Shown here: one piece after another, positions 1 through 16,991 of the stretch
How the letters are laid out: every line of letters starts with the position of its first letter
Position numbering within the stretch: position 1 is the stretch's first letter
Assembly: GCF_001311845.1 (NCBI RefSeq)
Contig: NZ_BBCC01000004.1
Coordinates: 1-64,000, forward strand
DNA from: Desulfosarcina cetonica JCM 12296
Lineage (GTDB): Bacteria > Desulfobacterota > Desulfobacteria > Desulfobacterales > Desulfosarcinaceae
DNA length: 64,000 bases
Direction: 5' to 3'
Program-made: the position numbers and the translations under genes
Notes under the pieces: model-generated
Told to the model about the DNA's origin: nothing
Databases searched by the model: none
Seen by the model: the letters and a program-made list of their open reading frames with translations, nothing else

Positions 1-234
1 CTTGGAGGTGCGGGCGAACAGCACCACCCCCGGCCACCGGTCGATCCAGGCGGTGCACCATGCCAGAAACACCTGGCCCGGCTTGGCGTAGCGCACTTTG
101 AGCCATTGTTTGCCGAGTTCCAAAAGGCTGACGTCGCCGGTCCGGTCGCCTTGCACCAAAAGGCCCGCCGGCTTGTACAGGGCCAGCAGATGGTTGTCGG
201 TGTATAGGACCGGCCAGCGATCGTCGAAGAACAA
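1..234 (-). CDS. RluA-family pseudouridine synthase, N-terminal part (runs off the window edge)
   Basis: The minus strand from a TTG at 234 reads FFDDRWPVLYTDN, then LLALYKPAGLLVQGD and GKQWLKVRYAKPGQVFLA. This is the start of the catalytic domain of RluA-type 23S rRNA/tRNA pseudouridine synthases. The catalytic motif HRLD is present but in a shifted frame (VHRLDRPVAG), between about positions 58 and 27. A compensating shift restores the frame to VVLFARTSK at the edge. These two shifts look like sequence errors. The gene follows the dehydratase gene by 3 nt, with AAGGATAAGG just upstream as a possible ribosome site, so it may be translated with the operon although its function is unrelated. 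The start codon is uncertain and the C-terminal part is outside the window. Confidence 0.7.
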   Translation of the reverse strand, partial: MFFDDRWPVLYTDNHLLALYKPAGLLVQGDRTGDVSLLELGKQWLKVRYAKPGQVFLAWCTAWIDRWPGVVLFARTSK

Positions 235-237
235 GCC

Positions 238-1488
238 TTATCCTTTCAACTCGTCCAATTGTTCGATGAAGGCTTCCACCTTGGTCTTGGTCTGCTCGTC
301 GGAGACGCAGCGCATGTCGCACAAATCACCGTCGATGGTCAGGCTGGGAATGCCGCTGAGCTTCTCCACACGCTTGACCATGCCGTAACGGCAGTTGGAG
401 TTGTTCGGACAGGTGCGCGCGTCGTGGTAGATGATGCCGTCGATGTCGAAGAAGTCAAGCTTGTCCTTGATGTACGTCTCCTTGTAGTCATCGGAGCGCA
501 CGATGAACAGCTCGGTGTAGGCCCGGGCCATGCTGCGGAAGGGGTCGTCGGCATCCAGGGCGGTGAAAATCCAGCTGCTGCAGTAGGTCGACGACAGGAC
601 GTTGGCCTTCAGGCCGGCGAACAGCTTGGAATGGGCCGACAACCGGCCCCACACGGGCATGCCGTCCCAATAGATGCGGAATTTTTCATCCTCGACGGCG
701 GCTTCCCTTTTGGCGGCCTTGTCCTTCAACTCGGCCAAAAGCTGGTCGTAGAGATCCACGGCCACCTGGGTGCCCCGACCCACCACGGCTGGCCCCATCA
801 GCGTGGAGGAGTCGAAAAAGGTCATGGGCGCCGGCTTGGCGGCATTGGTCTCCAGGACCTCTTTCCAGCGGTCCGAGCATCGCCGCGAGAGGCCGACCAC
901 TTCCTTGAACTTGTCCATGTCGAAACGGTTGCCGGAAATCTCCTCCAGCGGCTTGACCAGGCCTTCGATCTGCTTGGCCACATCGTCCACGATGGTCTCG
1001 GTCACATCACCCACGGAACGATTGGTGTAGACCCCGATCACGGGCACGTTGTACTCCCGGGCGTAATAGGCGAACCAGTCCTGGACGTCCCGGCACTGAT
1101 TGGTGTTGAAGACCAGCACATCCGGCTTGGGAACGGTCTCGATGCCCGGGTAGGCCTTGGACAAGGGGGTGAACTTGTTCAGGTAGGCACCCACATCGGC
1201 CGTCAGGTAGGAGCAAATCTCCGGTGAATAACCCAGGGCATTGGCCGCCGGGATCATGTCCGTTGCCGTGCGCGTGCTGCCCAGCATGGCCCCGTGGGTC
1301 TCGGGAAAATAGACCAGAAAGCCCATGGCACGCAACAGTTCGGTGGGACCGACGCTGGTACACCAGGCGATCTTGCGGTTTCCGGTGGTGGCGGCCTCGT
1401 TCAGCTCGTAGTAGTAATCCTTCATGAACCGGCCCATGTCCTTGGAGGTCTGAATCACCTTGCGGACCACTTTTTTCTCTTCTGCCAT
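238..1488 (-). CDS. 2-hydroxyacyl-CoA dehydratase / benzoyl-CoA reductase family subunit (HgdB/BcrC-like)
   Basis: This 416-residue protein belongs to the family of oxygen-sensitive Fe-S enzymes that dehydrate 2-hydroxyacyl-CoAs or reduce activated substrates, driven by ATP-dependent single-electron transfer from an HgdC-type activator. Supporting motifs are WCTSVGPTELLRAMGF near residue 42, NTNQCRDVQDWFAYYA near 130, CSSWIFTALDADDP near 305, and a C-terminal block with ARTCPNNSNCRYGM, GIPSLTIDGDLCDMR and EQTKTKVEAF, which is typical of the family. At least seven cysteines are available for cluster binding. The activator gene lies 43 nt upstream, so the two are clearly one unit. No second dehydratase subunit (HgdA/FldC type) is present nearby, whereas classical enzymes are heterodimers. 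I place the start at the second of two adjacent ATGs because GGAGG is better spaced to it. The substrate is unknown. Confidence 0.85.
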   Translation of the reverse strand: MAEEKKVVRKVIQTSKDMGRFMKDYYYELNEAATTGNRKIAWCTSVGPTELLRAMGFLVYFPETHGAMLGSTRTATDMIPAANALGYSPEICSYLTADVGAYLNKFTPLSKAYPGIETVPKPDVLVFNTNQCRDVQDWFAYYAREYNVPVIGVYTNRSVGDVTETIVDDVAKQIEGLVKPLEEISGNRFDMDKFKEVVGLSRRCSDRWKEVLETNAAKPAPMTFFDSSTLMGPAVVGRGTQVAVDLYDQLLAELKDKAAKREAAVEDEKFRIYWDGMPVWGRLSAHSKLFAGLKANVLSSTYCSSWIFTALDADDPFRSMARAYTELFIVRSDDYKETYIKDKLDFFDIDGIIYHDARTCPNNSNCRYGMVKRVEKLSGIPSLTIDGDLCDMRCVSDEQTKTKVEAFIEQLDELKG

Positions 1489-1531
1489 CATCTCCTCCGA
1501 TTATTTAGATATTGGGCGTTTGACGACGCCG

Positions 1532-2305
1532 TCATTGGTTAATCGCAAACAAAGCCGCGCCAATCGCACCGGAAAACTGCGGATACGGCGGCACCTCGAT
1601 CTTTCGGCCGATGATCTCCTCGGCCATGTCGACCAGATAGGGATTGTGGGCCACCACCCCGCCGGTCATGACCACGTTTTCGGTCAGGGAATCCATCTCC
1701 AGCACGCGTTTGATTACCGAGAAGAAGAGGCCCTTGACGATATCCGCGACCTTCTTGCCATGGCGGATGTTCTCCAACACCTCGGTGCCGGAAAAAACCG
1801 TGCAATAACTGCCCAGCTTGACCATGTCGGTAGACTTTTTGGCGTTATCGTTCATCGCCTCCAGCGGAATATTGAGCCGCAGGGACATCTCTTCCAGAAA
1901 GGCGCCCGTGCCGGCGGCGCACTTGCGGTTCATCTTGAATTCCGTGCGCAGGCCGGCATCGCTCAATTTGATGATTTTGTTGTCCTGCCCCCCGATATCG
2001 ATGATCGAAATGGCATGCGGAAAGTAGTGAAAACAGCCCTTGCCATGGCAGGCGATCTCGGTTTTGGTGGCATTGGCAAAGGTGACATTGCTGCGACCGT
2101 AACCGGTGGCGATACCGGCGGCGATCGCGTCCATGCCGACACCGGCCATGCTCAAGGCTTCTTTTAAACAGAGCTCCGCGGTTTGGCCGTAATCCGTGCC
2201 CGAATTGTGCACCGCCCGGCCGATCACGTTCTTGGCGGCATCCAGCACCGCCACCTTGGTCCTGGAGGCCCCCAGGTCAATGCCCACGTAGACAGATTGA
2301 GACAT
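1532..2305 (-). CDS. 2-hydroxyacyl-CoA dehydratase activator, HgdC/BcrA-type ATPase
   Basis: This 257-residue protein is an ASKHA-fold ATPase of the BadF/BadG/BcrA/BcrD/HgdC family. Such homodimers carry one [4Fe-4S] cluster at the subunit interface and fire single electrons into the dehydratase or reductase on ATP hydrolysis ('archerase'). Visible are the first phosphate loop VGIDLGASRTKVAV (residues 7-20), the ATPase motif SIIDIGGQDNKIIKL near 100, the bridging cluster cysteine in NRKCAAGTGAFLEEMS near 128 with the second in LGSYCTVFSGTE near 166, and the C-terminal adenosine motif VMTGGVVAHNP. Length is normal (about 255-265). A GAGGAG site precedes the ATG. It lies between glcF upstream and the dehydratase downstream in the same minus-strand unit. 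Confidence 0.92.
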   Translation of the reverse strand: MSQSVYVGIDLGASRTKVAVLDAAKNVIGRAVHNSGTDYGQTAELCLKEALSMAGVGMDAIAAGIATGYGRSNVTFANATKTEIACHGKGCFHYFPHAISIIDIGGQDNKIIKLSDAGLRTEFKMNRKCAAGTGAFLEEMSLRLNIPLEAMNDNAKKSTDMVKLGSYCTVFSGTEVLENIRHGKKVADIVKGLFFSVIKRVLEMDSLTENVVMTGGVVAHNPYLVDMAEEIIGRKIEVPPYPQFSGAIGAALFAINQ

Positions 2306-2386: not shown

Positions 2387-3703
2387 TTATGCCGCCTGGC
2401 GGTGGTTGTGCCCGACCGCGGCCGGGCAATGCCGGTGGGCCGCGCTTTCAGCACCCGCCGTGCCGGCAGCCATGAGTTGGCCCAGATGCACCACTTCCAC
2501 GTCCAATCCGAAGCGACGGGCACCGTCCATGAGTTGAATCATGCAGCCCGGACAGGCGGTGGCCACGATACGGGCACCGCTCTTTTGGATGGCGGCCATT
2601 TTTTGGCCTGGATGGCAAGACTGGTCTCCCGGTGCTTGACACCGAAGGTGCCGCCCAATCCGCAGCAGGCATCGGCACTTTCCATTTCCACGAATTCGAC
2701 GCTGCTGAGTGAATGTAACACTTTTCGCGGGAATTCGCCAATGCCTTGGTGCCATTTGAGGTGGCAAGGGTCATGGTAGGTGACTTTGATGGGAGACGAC
2801 GCATCGTGAGGGGTGGCCGGAAGGCCCTGCTGAACGAGAAACTCCGAGAAATCGACCACCTTGGCCGACACCGCCTGGGCCTTGCGATGCATGAGCGCGT
2901 TATCGGCGAACCACTGGCCATATTGCTTCAGGGTGGAGCCACAGGTGGCGCAGCCGGTAACGACGCAGTCATAGGCGGAAAGGATATCGATATTGCTTCT
3001 GGCCATGGCGCGGGCCGTCTGTCCATCGCCGGCATTGTGCACGGCCATGCCGCAGCAGCCCAGACCGTCGGGGGTGATCACCTCGATTCCGGCCATGGCC
3101 AGCGCGTGGACCATGTCGGCACCGGCCTGGGCGAAGAAGAACTCGAAGCCGCAGCCGGCAAAAAAGCCACCCGGCCTTTTCGCGGCGTACCGCTGGGCGG
3201 CGGGGTAACGGGATCGATGCGCGCCGATAAAAACGGTTTTGACAGCCGGGGAACGCTCATGCCACCGGAAAACAGGCTCAGGGCATCGGCCATATGCCGC
3301 AGGGGCCGGCCGTTGGTATGGCTAACCCCCGGAATCCGGGCGGCCAGGCCCATGAGGTGGGCCATGCGGGAGCGATGCTTGAGGATGCCCCGAAACAGCA
3401 CCTGTTGCCAGAAGGACCGCCCCCGTTCGGCCAGCCGGCGATGACGGGCCTGGACGTTGATCGCCGGCGAGGGCACCTTGGCGGGGCAGACCGCCTGGCA
3501 GCGCCCGCACAAAAGGCAGTTGTCCAGACACTCGCCGTAGGCTCGGCGTCGGGCAGCGTGCCGGCTTCGGCCATGCGAATCAACAGGTTGCGCCCGCGGG
3601 CGACATGGCTCTCCACATGGTCCACCTGGTAGACCGGGCAGGCCGACATGCAGAAACCGCATTTCATGCAACGCGAGGCGTCGATGGTCGGGAAGGTGTT
3701 CAT
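2387..3703 (-). CDS. glcF: GlcF/LldE-type iron-sulfur subunit of 2-hydroxyacid (glycolate/D-lactate) dehydrogenase; three frameshifts
   Basis: The product is an Fe-S protein with two N-terminal 4Fe-4S motifs (CMKCGFCMSACPVYQ, then CLLCGRCQAVCPAKV) followed by two CCG domains (GLGCCGMAVHNAGDG and YHDPCHLKW...DACCGLGGTFG). It passes electrons from the FAD subunit encoded just upstream. The reading frame changes near 3545, 3165 and 2602. The last lies in a run of six A on the coding strand where seven restore the frame, and the end then reads AIQKSGARIVATACPGC. With the breaks repaired the protein is about 439 residues, normal for GlcF. The ATG overlaps the glcD stop (TGATG), showing translational coupling. 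I treat the breaks as sequence errors because all domains are conserved across them. Confidence 0.85.
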
Positions 3704-5090
3704 CACGAAGGCTCCCATATTTTCCCGGGGTTGAGCAGCCCCTTGGGATCGAAGGCGCGCTTGATGCCCTTGAGCAGCGAAATCGCCTCGGGCGACATGG
3801 CCTTTTTGAGAAAACGCTGTTTCTCCAGCCCGATGCCGTGCTCGCCGGAGATGGCCCCGCCAAACCCCAGGGCCGCGTCGAAAATTTCGTCGGCCGCCCG
3901 CTGGGCACGGGCATAGTGCGCGGCGTCCGCCTTGTCGGTCAAAATGCAGGGATGCAGATTGCCGTCGCCGGCATGCCCGATGATGGCGATGGTCAGATCA
4001 AGATCCCGGGCCAGCTTCTGGGTATGGACGATCTGATCGGCGATGCGATGGGTGGGCACGGTCACATCCTCTGCCAGGACCGTTGGGGACGCACTGAAAA
4101 CGGCCGAAAAGCCCATGCGCCGGGCGGTCCAGAAATCAGCGGTTTCGGCGGCATCCCTGGCGGCACGCACCTCCGATGCGCCCGCCGCCTGGCAGAGCCG
4201 GATCACAGCCTCGGTTTCCTGTTGCACGCTCTCCGCATTGCCGTCCAATTCGAAGAGTAAAATGCTTCCGCCGACAGCGGTATTCCCAGGGGCAGGTTCT
4301 CCTCGATGCGGCGCACCACCCAGTTGTCCATCAGCTCGATCTTGGCCGGAATCACCCCGCTGGCACGCACCTGGTGGACCGCTTGACCGGCCGTCACCAC
4401 GCGGTCGAAAATGGCCAGCACCGTGCGGGAGGCCTGGGGTTTGGGCAGAAGGCGCAGGGTGACATCGCTGATCACCGCCAGGGTTCCCTCGGCGCCGCAA
4501 ACGATCTGGGGCAGATCGTAGCCGGTAACGTTCTTCATCGTGTTGCCGCCCAGGGTAACGACGGCGCCGCTGGGCAATACCGCGGTCATGCCCAGCAGGT
4601 AATGCCGGAAAACCCCGTACTTCACCGCATAGGGGCCACCGGCATTCTCGGAGACGCAGCCGCCCAGGGTGGCGGCCAGAAGACTCTGGGGATCCGGCGG
4701 GAAAAAGAGGTTCTGGCGGGCAAGGACCTGGTTGAGATCGTTCAGGACAACCCCGACCTGGGCCTTGACCGTGAAATCCTCCCCATTGATCTCAAGGATC
4801 CGGTTCATGCGCGACGTGCAAAGCACGATCCCGCCGGCCATCGGCACCGGACCGCCACTGAGGCTGGTACCGGCCCCGCGCACGGTCACCGGAATGTCGT
4901 TTTGATCGGACAGCTGCATGACACGGCTGATCTGGTCGACATCGGTGGGAAAGACCACCACCTCCGCGTTCCCCTGGCAATGGGTGGTGCCGTCGACGGA
5001 GTAAACCACCAGGTCGTTGGCGTCGGTCAGCACAGCATCCGCGCCGACGATGGTTTTGAGGGCTTGAAGGGTTTCTCGATTGAGGTGCAT
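3703..5090 (-). CDS. glcD: GlcD/D-lactate dehydrogenase-type FAD-linked oxidase subunit; one frameshift
   Basis: FAD-dependent 2-hydroxyacid dehydrogenase that would oxidise a D-2-hydroxy acid to the 2-oxo acid and hand electrons to the downstream CCG Fe-S protein. The N-terminal half has the PCMH FAD-binding domain (VRGAGTSLSGGPVPM near residue 77, GGCVSENAGGPYAVKYG near 140, LGGNTMKNVTGYDLPQ near 178). The C-terminal half is the FAD-oxidase C domain with IIGHAGDGNLHP and SGEHGIGLEKQRF. A single-base loss near 4265 splits the frame, and restoring it gives 462 residues, normal for GlcD. The ATG at 5090 fits homologues; a GTG at 5099 is possible. The neighbouring dehydratase suggests the substrate is a longer 2-hydroxy acid rather than glycolate, which is inference. 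Confidence 0.87.
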
Positions 5091-5105
5091 GGCGGTCACC
5101 GATGA

Positions 5106-6032
5106 TTACAGGTCGAAACTGGGTGCTCCGTTACCGTTGATTCTCTGGGATTGCTTGATCAGCAATTCACACAAGACCGTCATGATGCTGAAGGGCATGT
5201 GGTCGGCGATACCCTGCACCCATTTGGCTTTCTCCAGGGCAATCGCCTGGGGATCTTCACCGCCGGCGGTGCGCGCCAGCATTTCTTGATGGTAGGCACC
5301 GGTGGCCTTGAGGGCCTTGCCAAAGAACTCACGGGGGTCGGATTCGATCACGCCGTTATGGCTCAGGGCGACCCGGTTGGCCGAGAGGCCGGCCAGCTTC
5401 TTGATGCTCTCCACATATCCGGGTAGCGAGTCGAAGTAGTTGGGCCAGAAGGCCTTCTCCTCGGGGTTGTAGAAACCCGTGGCGTCGCCGATGGTCAGCG
5501 TGCCCTCGCGCTCTTCATGATAGGCGATCTGGCAGGCCGAATGACCGGGAATGGCATGCACACGCCAAACGATGCCGTTTCCCAGATCGAAACAATCCCC
5601 CTCCTGGGCGACGATGTCGACGCTGAAATCGTAGTTTTCCAGCCGGTCGGGCAGGCTCTCGATCTCTTCCTTGGACTGCATGATCTTGCTGATGCTGACG
5701 TCCACCCCGTGAAACTGGTTGAGCAGCTTGCCGTTGCTCAGGATCTTGGCCGCCAACGGGCTGCCGATGGTTTTCAAGTGGGGCCACAAGGCCTTCAGGC
5801 GCGGCAAGGCACCGATGTGATCGGTGTGGGTATGGGTCAGGGCCACATACTTGATGCGCTGGGGATCGATACCGATCATCTGAATCTGCTCGGCCACGAT
5901 GTCGAAGGTAGCGCTGATGCCGCCCTCGATCAGCATGGCATCCTCACCGATCGATAAATACATCGGGAAAAACGGGGTTCCCAGCTGGTAAAAATTGGGT
6001 GTGATCGTCTTGGGGCTGAATCGCATGTGCAT
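5106..6032 (-). CDS. Metallo-beta-lactamase-fold hydrolase
   Basis: A 308-residue MBL-fold protein with the zinc-binding signature THTHTDHIG (residues 66-74), a later metal histidine in IPGHSACQIAYH, the bridging aspartate region TIGDATGFYNP and a C-terminal histidine in ALSHNGVIES. Two metal sites are therefore complete. There is no signal peptide, so it is cytoplasmic. It ends 15 nt before glcD in the same direction and probably shares its transcript. Members of this family near acyl-CoA genes often hydrolyse thioesters or lactones, but nothing in this sequence fixes the substrate. GGGAAGG precedes the ATG. Confidence 0.85.
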   Translation of the reverse strand: MHMRFSPKTITPNFYQLGTPFFPMYLSIGEDAMLIEGGISATFDIVAEQIQMIGIDPQRIKYVALTHTHTDHIGALPRLKALWPHLKTIGSPLAAKILSNGKLLNQFHGVDVSISKIMQSKEEIESLPDRLENYDFSVDIVAQEGDCFDLGNGIVWRVHAIPGHSACQIAYHEEREGTLTIGDATGFYNPEEKAFWPNYFDSLPGYVESIKKLAGLSANRVALSHNGVIESDPREFFGKALKATGAYHQEMLARTAGGEDPQAIALEKAKWVQGIADHMPFSIMTVLCELLIKQSQRINGNGAPSFDL

Positions 6033-9000: not shown

Positions 9001-10388
9001 TTAAAACTGCTTTTTGCGCAGAAATACCATCTCCGACACCTTGGCCACCATCGTTTCGCCCTGGACCAACTCGACCTGCACCCGGGCGATCCGGCCCTGG
9101 GTGTCGATCACCCGCGCCGTGGCGATCACGTCTTCGGCCGGCTCGGCGGCGTTCAAGACTTCGATGTCGCAATTGAGCGGCAGGCCCACGTGCCCCAGCG
9201 AGTTGGCCACGGCGGCCATGGTCTGCTCCGCCAGGGTGAACAGCGCCCCCGTGTGGGTGTAGCCGAGAAAATTGGGCAGCTGGGCCGATCCGGGAAGACG
9301 TGCCGTGGCGCGCCCGCTCTCGAACTCGGTGAACTGAATGGAGAGCGCCCGCGCCAGGGGAGACGTCTCCAGGGCGCGACGCAGCGCATCCAGGTCTTCC
9401 GCATGGATGGCGTCACGGACCGCATCGGGCTCGCTGGCCGATTCGACCACGGAGAGTTTCTGCCGGTTGCGCTCCTCGACACCGCGCACCAGCAGTGAAA
9501 CCGCCTCATTAAAAGGGGTCGGGATATTCAAAGATTGCCCTTCGGAAACGATCACCTCGTTCAGATTGCCGATTTCAGTGGGCCGCCCGGCCTCCACATC
9601 CTGCAACATGGAAACCCGGTTGTCCTGGGTGGAGGCAAACGCCTTGAGGGCGAAAGCCGGCGGATCGTCCAACTCGGGGATATGGATGCCCTTGGCCCGG
9701 GCCACCTGGGCCAGCTCCCGGCTGAGGGTCTCGATGACTTTTACCGTCGGCGCATGCTTGACCGCCGTGGCGCCGGTCAGGCCGGTGAGCGCCGCGACGA
9801 CATTGGTGGACACATTGGCGATCAGTTTCTTCCAGATGACGCCGTTGATATCCGCCGTGGTGTACACGTCCAGGCCAACGTCCTGAAATGCGGAGACCAT
9901 CTTCTCAAAGCCGGGCCGCTGACGCCGTCATAGGGGCCGATGACCAGAAGGGGGCCCAAGCCACCCACATACTTCACCTCGTTCATGCTCACCGGCATGC
10001 CGGAGTGAGCCGTGATGCCACCGACGACTCGCTCCGGCCCCACCACGTCGGCAATCGCCTCCAGATTCCCCAGGCCGTTTTGCACCGACAGGACCACGGT
10101 CTTCTCGCCAATCATGGGCCGGGCGCTCTCAATGGCCGAACGCGTGTGGTACCCCTTGACCGCCACCATGACCACATCCTTGACGCCCACCGCGTTCACA
10201 TCGGTGGTGATGTTGACGCGCGCATGGGTCCGTTCCCCATCGGGCCACTGCATCCACAAGCCTTCCTTGTCGATCAGGCGAACCCGCTCGTCGAGCACTT
10301 CGATCAGGGTCACCGGAAACCCTTTTTGAGTAAATAGGCTGCCAAAAATTGACCCCAGTACACCGGCACCCACAATCGCTATTTCCAT
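9001..10388 (-). CDS. Ketopantoate-reductase-family oxidoreductase fused to a hotdog-fold (PaaI-like) thioesterase; one frameshift
   Basis: The N-terminal part (residues 1-165) is a Rossmann NAD(P) domain (MEIAIVGAGVLGSIFGSLF, LSVQNGLGNLEAI). Residues 170-308 are the ApbA/PanE C-terminal helical domain (INGVIWKKLIANV, DVEAGRPTEIGNLNEVI, IPTPFNEAVSLLV). Without a stop, residues 330-462 continue as a hotdog thioesterase (NFLGYTHTGALFTLAEQTM, then VIDTQGRIARVQVEL). One lost G near 9905 breaks the frame inside the reductase part (SGPGFEKMVSAFQ when repaired). The linker between the two domains lies in an undisturbed stretch, so the fusion looks genuine. No panB/panC genes are near, so a role as 2-oxo/2-hydroxyacid reductase seems likelier than pantothenate synthesis; that is inference. 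It is the first gene of the minus-strand run. Confidence 0.8.
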
Positions 10389-10670
10389 GACGCATCCCTC
10401 CTGCCGCGTTACCCAAACATGGTCGCCCCCTGCATCGGACGGAATGCCCACGCTTGGAGATTTACCGACCTTTTTTATTTATTAGACAATTTAAAAAATT
10501 AAGGGCATTTTGTTTTTTTCTTGTCAATCGAGAACTCATTTAATAAGTATAAATCTCTGAATATCGGAATATCCTAAAATTATCGCCCGTGACGGACACC
10601 GCCCGCCAGGAATGCACCCCATTGCCAGCTCCGAACTGTCCACGGCCGAGCAACCCATCGAGCGTCCCCC
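10389..10670. promoter_or_regulatory. Divergent control region between the reductase/thioesterase operon and the Lrp gene
   Basis: This 282-nt interval holds an AT-rich core at about 10470-10590. Reading minus, TTGACA is followed by an A-rich stretch; reading plus, TTGTCA is 17 nt from TAAGTA. Neither is strong enough to name a promoter, but divergent transcription must start here. An Lrp-type regulator next to its target operon makes operator sites likely. Confidence 0.5.
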
Positions 10671-11144
10671 ATGAAAATTGACGAAATCGACAAGAAGATC
10701 CTCGAAATCCTGCAAACCAACGGTCGCATCACCAATGCCAAGCTGGCGTCCATCATCGGTATTTCCCCGCCGGCCATGCTGGAACGTGTGCGCCGTCTGG
10801 AGACCGCCGGGGTGATTTCCCAGTATGCCGCCATTCTGGACCGCGAAAAAATCGGCCTCGAGGTGATGGCCATCGTCTCCATCTCCCTGGTGGCCCATGA
10901 ACTCGAATCCATCGACCGTTTCCGGGAGCGCCTTTTGGCCCTGGATGAAGTCCTGGAGTGCCACCAGGTCACCGGAGAAGATGACTTCATCCTCAAAGTC
11001 GTTCTCGGCAACATCAAAAGCTACTCGGAATTCGCCATGAAGAAGCTGGCCGCCATTCCGGGTATCCAGAACTTCAAATCCTCTTTTGTGCTCTCCACGA
11101 TCAAGGATTCGAGCAGTCTGCCGGTTAAGCTGAACGACGCTTGA
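10671..11144 (+). CDS. Lrp/AsnC-family transcriptional regulator
   Basis: A 157-residue Lrp/AsnC protein. Residues 1-60 form the winged helix-turn-helix (KIDEIDKKILEILQTNGRI, ISPPAMLERVRRLETAGVI). Residues 65-150 form the ligand-binding RAM domain (EVMAIVSISLVAHE, CHQVTGEDDFILKVV). Such regulators respond to amino acids and often control adjacent catabolic or transport genes. It is divergent from the hydroxyacid operon and convergent with iorBA, which fits a sensor for the amino acid or 2-oxo acid handled by these enzymes. The ATG follows CCCC-rich sequence with no strong ribosome site, so the start rests on family alignment. Confidence 0.92.
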   Translation: MKIDEIDKKILEILQTNGRITNAKLASIIGISPPAMLERVRRLETAGVISQYAAILDREKIGLEVMAIVSISLVAHELESIDRFRERLLALDEVLECHQVTGEDDFILKVVLGNIKSYSEFAMKKLAAIPGIQNFKSSFVLSTIKDSSSLPVKLNDA

Positions 11145-11289
11145 AAGTCGGCTCGCAAAGTCCGTCTAAGCCCCGCTACCGGTGTTGGAAAGCGGCCCGA
11201 AATGCTCACATATGCCATATATGCTCCGCTTTCGAGCCGCTTTCGCCTTGGTATCGGACCTGATCCAGACTTTGCAAACCGACTTTGAA
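11141..11289. repeat. Long nested palindromic element between convergent lrp and iorB
   Basis: The outer arms (11141-11164 and 11266-11289) pair over about 20 of 24 positions: GAAAGTCGG..GCAAAGTC faces GACTTTGC..CCGACTTT. The inner arms (about 11179-11202 and 11230-11257) also pair, GAAAGCGGCCCGAAA facing TTTCGAGCCGCTTTC. The centre is CATATGCCATATATG. The whole 149 nt can fold into one long hairpin. It sits exactly between two converging genes and could stop transcription both ways. The form resembles mobile palindromic repeats, but no second copy was found in this window. Confidence 0.75.
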
Positions 11290-11324
11290 AATTCTCGTAC
11301 ATGGAGAAGTAAAACCCCCAATAA

Positions 11325-11915
11325 TTATCCGAGTTCCCGCCCCTTGTCGAAGGCCATCAGATTCAGCGCCATGAACTTGGACGGCACCCGCTCGGCGATG
11401 ACCGCTTTCCAGCCATCCAGGGGGAGCGACAACAGGGTCGAGGCCACGCCGAGCAAGATCGTGTTCACCAGTCGCGGGTTGCCGAATCCTTCCGCCAGGG
11501 GCAGGGCATCCACGAAGATGGCGTTCTCACTACGCTGCCGGATCACCGCCTCGGCATCCTCGGGATAGCTGCCCATGCCGGCATAAATGGCCGGCGGGAT
11601 GATCCGTTGCAGATTACTGATCACCCGCCCGTCGGGCTTGAGAAAATGCAGCCAGCGGACGGTTTCGGCCAGTTCGAAGGAGAGCAGAATGTCCGCCTCG
11701 CCTTCCATGATCATCGGAGAGTAAACCTTCTCGCTGTAGCGCACATGACTGGTCACGACGCCGCCACGCTGGGACATGCCGTGGATCTCACTCTTCTTGG
11801 TGTCGAAACCGCTGGACATGGCCACGTCCGAGAGAATTTCGCTGGCCGTGATCACGCCCTGACCGCCGGTTCCGACCACCAGCACGTTGGTCGTATTGGT
11901 ATTCTCACGTTTCAT
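11325..11915 (-). CDS. iorB: Indolepyruvate:ferredoxin oxidoreductase, beta subunit
   Basis: A 196-residue beta subunit of IOR, matching the gamma domain of 2-oxoacid:ferredoxin oxidoreductases. VVGTGGQGVITASEILSD (residues 13-30) and KKSEIHGMSQRGGVVTSHV (near 41-59) are diagnostic, followed by PMIMEGEADILLSFE and LVNTILLGVASTLL. With IorA it oxidises arylpyruvates (from Phe, Tyr, Trp) to aryl-acetyl-CoA, reducing ferredoxin. It lies 26 nt downstream of iorA in the same direction and ends close to the palindrome shared with lrp. Confidence 0.94.
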   Translation of the reverse strand: MKRENTNTTNVLVVGTGGQGVITASEILSDVAMSSGFDTKKSEIHGMSQRGGVVTSHVRYSEKVYSPMIMEGEADILLSFELAETVRWLHFLKPDGRVISNLQRIIPPAIYAGMGSYPEDAEAVIRQRSENAIFVDALPLAEGFGNPRLVNTILLGVASTLLSLPLDGWKAVIAERVPSKFMALNLMAFDKGRELG

Positions 11916-11941
11916 TGTTCGTCTCCTGTCTCTCTCGGTAA

Positions 11942-13749
11942 TCAGCCGGCCATCACGGAAATGGCGTCTTGTTTGCAGATCTGTTCGCAAAGGGTGCAGC
12001 CGTAACAGGTGGCGGCATCGATGCGCGCATAGCGGCGCTCCTTCTTGCCTTCTTCATCCGGAATGATGCCGCCCTGGGAAATGGACGGGCAGCCCAGCTT
12101 CAGGCACATCTTGCAGCCGATGCAGGCCGCCTCGTCCACGACGCGCACGGCTTGCGGGTCCTGACGGAAGAGCTGGATGCAGGGGCGCCGGGTGACCAAC
12201 ACGCTGGGTCCGTCGTAATCGACTTCTTCCTTGAGCGCCGCCAGGGTACCTTCCAGGTCGAAGGGATCGATCTCCCGGGCACGCTTGACGCCCAGGGCCT
12301 TGACCAGTTCGATGATGTCGACGGCAACGGTCTCCTCCATCTGCAGCGTACGTCCGGTTCCCGGATTCTGCTGGCCACCGGTCATGGCGGTAATGCGGTT
12401 GTCCATGACGATCACATTCACGTTGCCCCGGTTGTAGATCACATCCAGCAGGCTGGTGATCCCCGAGTGAAAGAAGGTCGAATCGCCGATGGCGGCAAAC
12501 ACCGGCCGCTTGTCTTCGATCTTGGCCTGGGCCATGGCCTTGGCCGTGCCGTGGGCCATGCTGATGCTGGCGCCCATGCAGAGCGTGGAGTCGATGCTCT
12601 GCAGTGGCGGGAGCACGCTCAGGGTGTAGCAGCCGATATCGCTGTGGACGATGGCCTTCATCTTGTTAAGGGCAAAGAACAGCCCCCGGTGGGGACAGCC
12701 GGCACACAGCAGCGGCGGCCGCGGCATCTCGCTGCCGGGTGCCTTTTGGGCGGCCGGCGGAAGGTCATAGGGCAGCACGCCGGCCTTGGCGAAGCCGGCG
12801 GCCACCACGTCCGGCGAGAGCTCATCCAGCCTGGGGAAGAACGTCTTGCCCTCGACGGCCAGCCCCATGATGCGGATTTCATCCTCGATGTACGGTTCGA
12901 GTTCTTCCACCACAAAGAGACGGTCCACCTTGGCGGCGAACGCGGCGATCATCTTCCTGGGCAGCGGAAACGTCATGCCAATCTTGAGAACCGATGCATC
13001 CGGCAGAATCTCCTTTACATACTGGTAGGCGATCCCGCTGGTGATCACGCCAACGGCGGTATCCTTCCATTCGATGCGGTTGAAGGCGCTCGCCTCGGTC
13101 ACCTCGGCCAACTTGGCCTCCCTTTCGAGCACCAGGGGATGCCGCAGCTTGGCAAAGGCCGGAATCATGACGAACTTCTTCAGATCCCGCTTAAAACCTT
13201 CGGCCACCGGCACGTCGATCGACGCATCGGCGTCCACGCCGACAATCCCCTTGGAATGACATACCCGCGTGGTCATGCGCAAAAGCGTGGGGGTATCAAA
13301 GGCTTCAGACAGACGCAGCCCTTCGGCCACCATGGCCTTGGCCTCCTGGCTATCGGACGGCTCCAGCATGGGAATCTTGGCGAAACGCGCGTAAAAGCGG
13401 TTGTCCTGCTCGTTTTGGGAGCTGTGCATCCCCGGATCATCGGCGCAAACCATCAACAGACCGCCGGGAATGCCCGTATAGGCCAGCGTCATCAACGGAT
13501 CGGCCGCCACATTGAGCCCCACATGCTTGGCGGTGAAAAGGGTGCGCACGCCGGTCATGGCCGATCCGATGGCCACCTCCAGGGCTACCTTTTCGTTGGG
13601 CGCCCACTCGGCATATACGCGTCGTAGGTGGCAAAGTTCTGTAATATCTCGGTACTCGGCGTGCCCGGATAGGCACTGGCAACCTTCACCCCGGCCTGGT
13701 AGGCCCCCAGGGCCACCGCCTCGTTTCCTGAAAGGATCTGTCTCTTCAT
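11942..13749 (-). CDS. iorA: Indolepyruvate:ferredoxin oxidoreductase, alpha subunit; one frameshift
   Basis: A TPP-dependent, Fe-S containing subunit of about 602 residues. The true start is the ATG at 13749: MKRQILSGNEAVALGAYQAG, then ASAYPGTPSTEILQNF. A one-base loss near 13615 then throws it into the frame that begins YAEWAPNEKVALEVAIG. The TPP domain shows LLCAGCPHRGLFFAL, IGDSTFFHSGITSLLDV and MDNRITAMTGGQQNPGTG. The C-terminus carries two 4Fe-4S motifs, CIGCKMCLKLGCP and CYGCTLCEQICKQ. All match IorA in order and length. It is the first gene of iorAB and has a good sigma-70 promoter upstream (13830-13858). Confidence 0.93.
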
Positions 13750-13829
13750 TGCTGAATTCTCCCGTCGGTTTTGATAAAAATGAATGTAAAAAAATATTGA
13801 CCATTCATTTTATCTTCATTATGCTAATT

Positions 13830-14374: not shown

Positions 14375-15333
14375 ATGGGCAAATCCAATTCAAATCAGCG
14401 TTGGCATTACGGCATCATCGGGGCCGGCCCGGTGGGGTGCATCGTCGCCGCTTTCCTGGCTCGCGGCGGGCACCGTGTCACCCTTTGCGACATTGTGCCC
14501 GAACTGGTGGATACGGCCAGGCAGCGGGGCATCATCATCGAGGGGGCGGAAACCATCGAACAAAAGGTCCCCGAAACCTGCAACCAGATCGACGAGCTGA
14601 TCGCCGCCGGACCCGAAGCGATTTTCATCTGTGTCAAGGCCCAGGCGTTGCCGCTGATCTCCTCGGCACTGGGGGATCTGTACCAGGAAGGCATTTACGT
14701 GGTCAGTTGGCAAAACGGGATCGACACGGAATACGAAATCGCCAATGTTTTGGGCAAAACACCGGTGATGCGCGCCGTGGTGAACTGGGGCTGCGGCCTG
14801 TTGGGACCGGCCCACGTCACCATGTCCTTCCACCACCCGCCGCACTACATCCAGGAGCTCGATCCTGCCGCCACGGATGCGGCCCGGCACATTGCCCGGG
14901 ACCTGACGGCCAGTGGCCTGGTCACCGAGCATACCCACCAGATTGTTCCCATGGTCTGGCGCAAGACGGTCATGAACGCTTCCATGAACCCGGTATGCGC
15001 GGCCACCGGGCTGACCATGGCCCAGGCCATGGGTGATCCCATGACCTTCGGCGTCATCGACGCCTGATCAAGGAATGCCTGGCCGTGGCGCGCGCCAACG
15101 AAATTCATTTGGGATGGGATTACTACCAGAATGCCGTGGACTACATGCGCAGCGCGGGCCATCATAAGCCGTCGATGCTGATGGATATCGAAGCCTCCCG
15201 GCGAACGGAGATCAATTACATCAACGGAAAATTCGTCGAATATGGCACCCGGGCCGGCATCCAGACCCCCTACAACACCACCATGCGGTCGTTGATCAAG
15301 GGCATCGAGTTCCGCATGGAAGCTCGCCGGTAG
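14375..15333 (+). CDS. Second ketopantoate-reductase-family oxidoreductase; one frameshift
   Basis: A 319-residue protein of the ApbA/PanE family with an NAD(P)-binding N-terminus (YGIIGAGPVGCIVAAFLARG), the mid motif VVSWQNGIDTE, a catalytic-lysine region MVWRKTVMNASMNP and the C-terminal block SMLMDIEASRRTEINYINGK, then IQTPYNTTMRSLI. A base is lost near 15062, after which the frame reads RLIKECLAVARANEIH. It is a paralogue of the reductase part of the fusion at 9001-10388 but lacks the thioesterase and stops normally. Linked to an ACT protein and an acyl-CoA ligase, it is more plausibly a 2-oxoacid reductase than PanE. Confidence 0.82.
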
Positions 15334-15423: not shown

Positions 15424-16991
15424 ATGGCGCACTGGATGAATCTGGGACAGCAATTTAAAATCAACGCGCGGAAGTACCCCGCAAACTCGCACTCACGGAC
15501 CACGAGCGCCGCTTTACCCACGCGCAGACCAACCGGCGGGTCAACCAGTTGGCCCACCGGCTCACGGCGTTGGGTCTGGCCAAGGGCGACAAGGTCGCCG
15601 TGTTCATGGACAATTGCATCGAAATCATCGAACTCTACCTGGCCGTGGCCAAAACCGGCATTCTCATCGTACCGATCAATTTCCGCCTGGTGGGACGCGA
15701 AGTGGCCTATATCGTCAATGACTCCGACGCCAAGGCCATGGTGGTGCAGGCACAGTTCACCACGGTCATCGATCCGGTCAAAAAAGACTTCACCCACATC
15801 GCCGACGAGAACTATGTGGTCGTCGGTGGAAAGGCCGACGGCTACCGTGAATACGAAGGCTTCATTGCCGGCGCGCCGGAAGAAGAGCCCGTGGCGACCG
15901 TCTTGCCGTCCGATCCATGGATCCTGATTTACACCTCCGGCACCACGGGCAAGCCCAAGGGGGTGATCCGCACCCATGAATCGCACATCGCCTTCTATCT
16001 GATCAATGCCTTGGAAATGGAATTCAACGCGAATGACTACTGCTTGAATATCATGCCCCTTTGCCATATCAATTCGACCTTCTACACCTTCATTTTCATC
16101 TATCTGGGCGGCAGCGTGTACCTCCATCCGGCGCTCTCCTTCCAGGCCTCGGATCTGCTCAGAATCGTCGAGCAGGAGCGGATCACCTTCATCTCCCTGA
16201 TCCCGACCCACTACAACCTGATTTTGAATGCCAACGATGCGGATCGCCTGCGGGATGTCAGCTCGATCCGCAAACTGCTCTGCTCATCGGCACCGGTCCG
16301 GCGCAAGATGAAGCGGGAGATCATGGACTTCTTTCCCAACGCCGAGCTCTATGAAGGCTACGGTTCCACCGAAGCCGGTTGCGTCACCGTGCTGAAACCC
16401 GAAGACCAACTGATCAAGACCGGCTCCATCGGCCGCGAGGTATTGGGTACCGAATTCGTCCGTCTTCTGGACCCCGAGGGCAACGAGGTTCCCACCGGTG
16501 AAGTGGGTGAGATTTTCTCGCGCGGCCCCATGCTTTTCGATGAATACTACAAGCTTCCGGAAAAGACCGCCGCCGCCTTCAATGGCGGATGGTTCTCGGC
16601 CGGCGACATGGGCCGCCGGGACGAAGACGGCTACTACTATATCGTTGACCGCAAGGATAACATGATCATCACCGGTGGCGAAAATGTCTATCCCAGCGAG
16701 GTGGAAGAGGTGGTGAGCAGTAACGCGTGCGTGTTCGATTGTGCCTGCATCGGCGTGCCGGATCAAAAATGGGGCGAGAAAATCGTGGCCGTCGTGACCC
16801 TCAAGCAGGGTTTTTCCGAAGAGGACGTCAATGAGAAGGAGATCAGTGATTGCTGCCGGGAAAAACTGGCCGGCTACAAACGGCCCAAACAGATCGTGTT
16901 CATCAAGAGCGACGAGATGCCCCGCACGGCAACGGGCAAGATCCTGCACCGCAAACTAAGGGAAAAGCTGGCCACGCAATCAAGCGGGTAA
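15424..16991 (+). CDS. AMP-dependent acyl-CoA synthetase/ligase (ACS 2); one frameshift
   Basis: About 522 residues. The true start is the ATG at 15424 behind GGGGAGG (MAHWMNLGQQFKINARKYP). One A is missing from an A-run near 15482, and the restored frame reads KLALTDHERRFTHAQTNRRV. The ANL motifs follow: YTSGTTGKPKGVIRTHESH, LYEGYGSTEAG, NGGWFSAGDMGRRDEDG, VDRKDNMIITGGENVYPSE and the lysine motif PRTATGKILHRKL. It is closest in form to long- and medium-chain or aryl-acid ligases of the CaiC/FadD type. It lies about 90 nt after the second reductase and before ACS 3, all on the plus strand. Confidence 0.9.

Follow-up and report, generated by a model that had tools for sequence, protein, structure and literature searches.

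A one-subunit relative of 2-hydroxyacyl-CoA dehydratases with a dedicated activator in Desulfosarcina cetonica, putatively acting on aryllactyl-CoA

To our knowledge, a second subunit is present in every characterised relative of the radical dehydratases described here. In the textbook 2-hydroxyacyl-CoA dehydratases (HADs), the electron from the activator goes to the beta subunit, whose cluster stores it between turnovers (PMC11574389). In the class I benzoyl-CoA reductases (BCRs), BzdO has the cluster ligands Cys95, Cys128, and Cys380, the residues Ser44, Glu65, Tyr97, and Tyr298, and the proton donor His131 (PMC11971306). Within the window, the whole 64,000-nucleotide stretch of D. cetonica DNA that was analyzed, we find a gene pair that probably encodes a one-subunit, ATP-activated Fe-S radical dehydratase, likeliest for (R)-phenyllactyl-CoA or another aryllactyl-CoA, and feeding benzoyl-CoA. 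The reaction type is known but the architecture would be a new variation on it, and no description of a homomeric HAD was found in the open-access literature, which omits most subscription papers.

The gene pair and the class of its subunit

The subunit gene (238 to 1491, minus strand) is intact, codes for 417 amino acids, and matches PF06050 (HGD-D; 1.7e-66). The intact activator gene (1532 to 2305, minus strand) codes for an HgdC-type ATP-dependent protein of 257 amino acids that scores 213 bits against TIGR00241 (acyl-CoA dehydratase activase; cutoff, 125); it has the two cluster cysteines of HAD activators, C129 and C168, which are kept in 79 of 79 family activators. The two genes are in operon order, activator then subunit, and the next gene codes for a pseudouridine synthase, so the arrangement proposed in the sequence-only reading is borne out. 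This last gene (1 to 234, minus strand) marks the end of the module and lies outside it; only its start is present, cut by the contig start, and the 78-amino-acid product has no Pfam match. The same protein is full-length (249 amino acids) in the 92%-identical relative L042, where an HRLDR motif identifies it as RluA-type.

The sequence-only reading labeled the subunit HgdB-type. Among curated models, however, the best score is to HadB (NF052455; 230 bits, cutoff 750), followed by BcrB (132, cutoff 487), BzdO (108, cutoff 449), and DCCP (NF040772; 61, cutoff 350), with HadC giving only 13 bits. Foldseek comparisons of the predicted fold (pLDDT 84.7) give TM-scores of 0.90/0.94 with HadB, 0.87 with BzdO, and 0.86 with MbdO, all alpha types, and 0.71 to 0.77 with DCCP and 0.66 to 0.72 with HadC, BzdN, and MbdN. 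A maximum-likelihood tree of 61 sequences splits a half containing DCCPs and beta subunits from a catalytic alpha half (support 100/99); the single-subunit family forms one clade (100/100) within the alpha half and groups there with HadB, MbdO, and the alpha subunits of paired systems (95/98). Scores, fold, and tree placement therefore show the HgdB-type label to be wrong, and the subunit, with its PF06050 fold of the kind found in HAD catalytic subunits, is of the alpha type (HadB/BzdO/MbdO).

These data also dispose of the proposed kinship with the double-cubane proteins DCCP and YjiM, given the NF040772 score, the presence of only four of the six ligand columns, and the position in the other half of the tree. 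What survives of the suggested homodimeric double-cubane-type enzyme is its gene content, as a lone subunit gene is paired with a lone activator gene as in DCCP systems, with no partner. Phylogeny had been put forward as a means of deciding between a DCCP-type homodimer and a heterodimer subunit. The subunit falls in the heterodimer clade, yet its partner is absent, and the truth thus lies between the two alternatives first offered.

Residue conservation was counted over 115 family members. The BzdO ligands Cys95, Cys128, and Cys380 correspond to C93, C133, and C361, and Ser44, Glu65, Tyr97, and Tyr298 correspond to S46, E64, Y95, and Y303; all seven are invariant, so the residue mapping gives the three [4Fe-4S] cysteine ligands and the Ser/Glu/Tyr site of HADs. 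Where BCRs have the proton donor His131, all members have Val, as does the aligned HadB chain. The extra cysteines to which attention had been drawn, in the motifs TCPNNSNC and DLCDMRC, are mostly not the conserved ones: C361 is one of the canonical cluster ligands, C367 occurs in 88 of the 115 members, and the DLCDMRC cysteines are rejected as a family feature (C391 in 4 of 115 and C395 in 44). Conserved extra cysteines nonetheless exist at C44 (114 of 115), C205, and C304 (115 each). These are family hallmarks, one in each of the three domains, and they are absent from HadB and from the closest alpha subunits of paired systems, which have I/V/S, G/A/N, and T/A/P at positions 44, 205, and 304, respectively.

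Of the six DCCP ligand columns, four are matched by C93, C133, C304, and C361; the columns equivalent to DCCP C25 and C288 hold T45 and a non-Cys residue, and C44 and C205 are at other positions. The six invariant or nearly invariant cysteines therefore differ from the DCCP six. Without beta, an enzyme has to take up the electron and retain it in another way: within its own cluster, within that of the other protomer, or within a second cluster built from the extra cysteines. We suggest tentatively, as a possibility that we rate well below even, that C44, C205, and C304, in a new ligand arrangement, give each protomer either a second Fe-S cluster or a larger cluster of double-cubane-like form, replacing the electron store of beta. 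If so, a two-cluster heterodimeric radical enzyme would have been collapsed into a single chain.

Searches for a second subunit

No second HGD-D gene is present within ~8 kb in ~100 related loci, apart from one fragment, in agreement with the earlier observation that no second subunit sits beside the gene. The fragment, next to the gene in an Ignavibacterium locus (L128), borders a 100-N scaffold gap and was rejected as a partner. We note that the region directly upstream of the single-subunit pair in this metagenome-assembled genome (MAG) (L128:4357-7037) contains this HGD-D C terminus and two activator-type ATPase genes, and is possibly a class I BCR-like operon.

A PF06050 survey of 39 genomes of the order, all carrying the family and several of them MAGs, shows that the window-type gene is the sole HGD-D gene in 12, of which 11 are 93 to 99% complete. 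In some other carriers, DCCPs are the only further HGD-D genes. The carriers that decide the matter are complete isolate genomes: Desulfococcus multivorans has the focal gene and two DCCPs, Desulfonema magnum (NZ_CP061800) has the focal gene and one DCCP, and whole-genome PF06050 searches found no alpha or beta partner gene in either. A Sterolibacterium MAG contains a single gene of each kind, HGD-D and activator, and the two are adjacent. The same search recovers heterodimer pairs in other genomes, and a partner would therefore have been detected.

The genome of the window itself (86.8% complete) has seven PF06050 genes: three DCCPs, an alpha and beta pair with two activators, the window gene, and a paralogue. 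A genome-wide search for a partner, as the sequence-only reading had advised, finds none in the 12 genomes or the complete isolates and an alpha-beta pair in the genome of origin. This pair (contig C115; L040:4433-8787), with its activators in tandem, scores below all curated BCR and HAD cutoffs, has an alpha motif W-S-[TN]-W and Arg at the His131 position, and has close relatives in several other Desulfobacterales; it is an uncharacterised heterodimer type. The three DCCP genes (L038 and L039), one on contig C165 and two close together on C51, score above the curated cutoff. The paralogue (contig C38; L041:5554-6804) is 65% identical to the subunit and has no adjacent activator of its own; it may share the activator in the window.

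The absence of a beta-type gene from many carriers departs from the HAD pattern of an alpha-beta heterodimer with an electron-storing beta, and judged from gene content the enzyme appears truly to be single-subunit. With no second subunit genome-wide, a homo-oligomer is the natural reading, presumably a homodimer. Carriers with only DCCPs besides the focal gene argue that the family arose from the alpha subunit of a heterodimer, which would have lost beta, the electron-storage subunit. It is unlikely that an unrecognised partner encoded elsewhere serves as beta, be it a DCCP, a fused activase protein of 1,400 to 1,500 amino acids, or a nonhomologous Fe-S protein. Many carriers do have DCCPs, and the large fused activase proteins are present in most genomes surveyed for activators. 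However, D. multivorans has no fused proteins and only two activator genes, one next to its DCCPs and one next to the focal gene; the 12 genomes have no other HGD-D gene, and the Sterolibacterium MAG has neither a DCCP nor a fused protein. Moreover, no conserved non-family Fe-S subunit of such a role recurs beside the gene, and a search with a family-wide HMM around orphan activator genes of two genomes (G203 contig C115 and G139 contig C3) gave no HGD-D match at E<1. At the G203 locus, tandem activator-type ATPase genes (L172:6884-7774) lie by genes for a ferredoxin and an 853-amino-acid NuoG-like protein, with no HGD-D nearby.

The single-subunit family is large, with at least 571 confirmed relatives in a scan of genome contigs, and occurs in organisms as different as sulfate reducers, Geobacter, Anaerolineae, and Thermoplasmatota. 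Eighty of these share 63 to 75% identity and are from Desulfobacterota, Geobacter/Citrifermentans, Anaerolineae, Ignavibacteria, Spirochaetes, Thermoplasmatota, Fischerbacteria, and Sterolibacterium MAGs. Two divergent members (L047 in G066 and L060 in G151) have 53 to 54% identity, lie in a different neighborhood, and lack an activator gene next to them in the flanking sequence examined; in the tree, L047 branches deepest within the family. A family this large and widespread without beta indicates that the electron-storing subunit is not essential, and the purpose of the second subunit becomes directly testable.

Neighboring genes and the proposed reaction

Neighborhoods were counted in 80 named loci. 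Near the subunit gene, 72 of them encode an acyl-CoA-activating enzyme, 68 a same-strand activator, 50 an ApbA/PanE-like dehydrogenase, 37 one or more beta-oxidation enzymes, and 25 IorA; PaaK is likewise encoded in 25. In the window, upstream of the activator on the minus strand are genes for a GlcF/LdhH-type Fe-S oxidoreductase (2468 to 3688), a GlcD-type FAD-linked 2-hydroxyacid dehydrogenase (3712 to 5159), and a metallo-beta-lactamase-fold hydrolase (5106 to 6032) that heads the putative operon and also adjoins the activator or subunit in a few relatives. Further along are IorB and IorA (11325 to 13804, minus strand), an arylpyruvate (indolepyruvate):ferredoxin oxidoreductase that is part of the conserved neighborhood of the family. 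On the plus strand are a truncated ketopantoate-reductase-like (ApbA/PanE) dehydrogenase gene (14375 to 15067), whose orthologue is the one adjoining the subunit in the 50 loci, and a gene for an AMP-forming acyl-CoA ligase (15549 to 16991) of a type found after the subunit in many relatives.

Relative to L042, where they are intact (415 amino acids at 10096 to 11343 and a 504-amino-acid open reading frame, respectively), GlcF has approximately three frameshifts and GlcD has one (2468 to 5159, minus strand), with the adjoining subunit and activator genes intact. Similar breaks are present in the ApbA-like genes at 9001 to 10451 and 14375 to 15067 and in IorA of contig C38, which suggests assembly errors or decay. 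The paralogue on C38 is in a single same-strand run with genes for HADH, thiolase, ECH, an ApbA-like dehydrogenase, a CoA ligase, and IorAB.

In D. multivorans, the focal gene is at 2.79 Mbp (2791060 to 2792307) with genes for a TRAP transporter, two CoA ligases, the activator, a dehydrogenase, an ACT protein, and IorAB; just upstream on the opposite strand are genes for HADH, an HADH-ECH fusion, and a thiolase. Proteogenomics of this strain in 2016 described two adjacent clusters at 2.77 Mbp, coding for a TRAP system, CoA ligase, dehydrogenase, hydratase, and thiolase, that are formed specifically on phenylacetate and phenylpyruvate (PMC5109826). The strain grows on phenyllactate and is without PadB and PadEFGHI, its route to benzoyl-CoA was called unclear, and the products of three genes (C24850-70) were interpreted as enzymes for phenyllactate/phenylpyruvate (PMC5109826). 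By its position, the focal gene appears to sit in these substrate-specific clusters, and we infer from gene order that C24850-70 are the focal gene, its activator, and the dehydrogenase. In the benzene degrader BzS1, a 2026 study reported a lone gene, 30% identical to FldB, whose product was undetected in proteomes (PMC13416013).

The conserved neighbors, namely 2-hydroxyacid dehydrogenase-like proteins, CoA ligases, IorAB, PaaK, and beta-oxidation enzymes, point to an (R)-aryllactyl-CoA dehydratase. The neighboring 2-hydroxyacid dehydrogenase, either ApbA/PanE-like or the GlcD/GlcF of the window, together with the acyl-CoA ligase would convert an arylpyruvate to (R)-phenyllactyl-CoA or another aryllactyl-CoA. 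The dedicated activator would then push one electron, driven by ATP, onto the [4Fe-4S] cluster of C93, C133, and C361. The 2-hydroxyacyl-CoA would bind the open iron, with the thioester near Y95 and Y303 and with E64 and S46 beside the open site; its reduction would give a ketyl radical, followed by loss of hydroxide, formation of the (E)-enoyl-CoA, and return of the electron. Enoyl-CoA hydratase, 3-hydroxyacyl-CoA dehydrogenase, and thiolase could then convert the cinnamoyl-CoA into benzoyl-CoA and acetyl-CoA. The simplest joint reading of locus and proteogenomics in D. multivorans would be that phenylpyruvate is converted to (R)-phenyllactate, phenyllactyl-CoA, and, by the candidate enzyme, cinnamoyl-CoA, with beta-oxidation then yielding benzoyl-CoA and acetyl-CoA.

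The enzyme is thus a candidate for the gap between phenylpyruvate and benzoyl-CoA in sulfate reducers without Pad enzymes, such as D. multivorans, and perhaps for phenylacetate too, through IorAB run in reverse. The conserved neighbors suggest that the family supplies a missing step from phenylalanine-type compounds to benzoyl-CoA in many anaerobes. IorAB and PaaK are near only about one-third of the loci, however, and the aromatic assignment may therefore not fit all members. An aliphatic substrate (lactyl-, 2-hydroxyglutaryl-, or 2-hydroxyisocaproyl-CoA) for the same single-subunit dehydratase would agree with HadB as the closest characterised relative and with the many loci that have the activator and ligases alone. 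We regard it as improbable, as the recurring neighbors of the gene include IorAB, PaaK, Had/Oah, and a TRAP system described as phenylalanine/phenylacetate-type, and the D. multivorans cluster is induced by aromatics (PMC5109826).

The sequence-only reading left the choice between reductase and dehydratase open, and dehydratase is favored. The alternative is a class I-like aryl-CoA reductase, in which subunit and activator would reduce an aromatic or enoyl CoA ester without 2-hydroxyacyl-CoA dehydration. In its favor, the subunit shares the BzdO/MbdO fold and Glu/Ser site, and two benzoyl-CoA pathway genes, for Had (TIGR03201) and Oah (TIGR03200), adjoin the subunit gene in Anaerolineae and in some sulfate reducers. 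It is nevertheless unlikely, because the BcrB and BzdO scores are far below their cutoffs, Val replaces the proton donor, there is one activator gene and not two, and 2-hydroxyacid dehydrogenase genes flank the gene. In addition, D. multivorans has the class II BamB for benzoyl-CoA and no bcrABCD (PMC5109826); together with the lack of a partner, these data disfavor identity as a class I BCR.

Comparison with known systems

FldBC with FldA/FldI of Clostridium sporogenes is a phenyllactyl-CoA dehydratase whose reaction and place in the pathway (phenyllactyl-CoA to cinnamoyl-CoA) are those proposed for the window enzyme; unlike the latter, FldBC is heterodimeric and uses a CoA-transferase. DCCP/YjiM with YjiL/DCCP-R resemble the window system in having one subunit and one activator and share four of six ligand columns, but the window subunit is in the other half of the tree, has no C25/C288 ligands, and has CoA-ester active-site residues. 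BzdNO, MbdNO, and BcrBC share the BzdO/MbdO-type catalytic fold, the [4Fe-4S]-OH2 ligand set, and the Glu65/Ser44/Tyr97/Tyr298 equivalents; class I BCRs, however, have two catalytic and two activator subunits and His131, whereas the window system lacks both a BzdN/MbdN partner and His131, has a single activator gene, and scores far below the equivalog cutoffs. HadBC (alpha subunit HadB, PDB 3o3m) is alike in fold (TM 0.90), the three cluster cysteines, the Ser, Glu, and Tyr residues of the active site, the Val in place of His131, and an HgdC-type activator. HadB nevertheless needs HadC and has no Cys at positions 44, 205, and 304, whereas the window subunit, only ~28% identical to HadB and at 230 against the NF052455 cutoff of 750, has all three.
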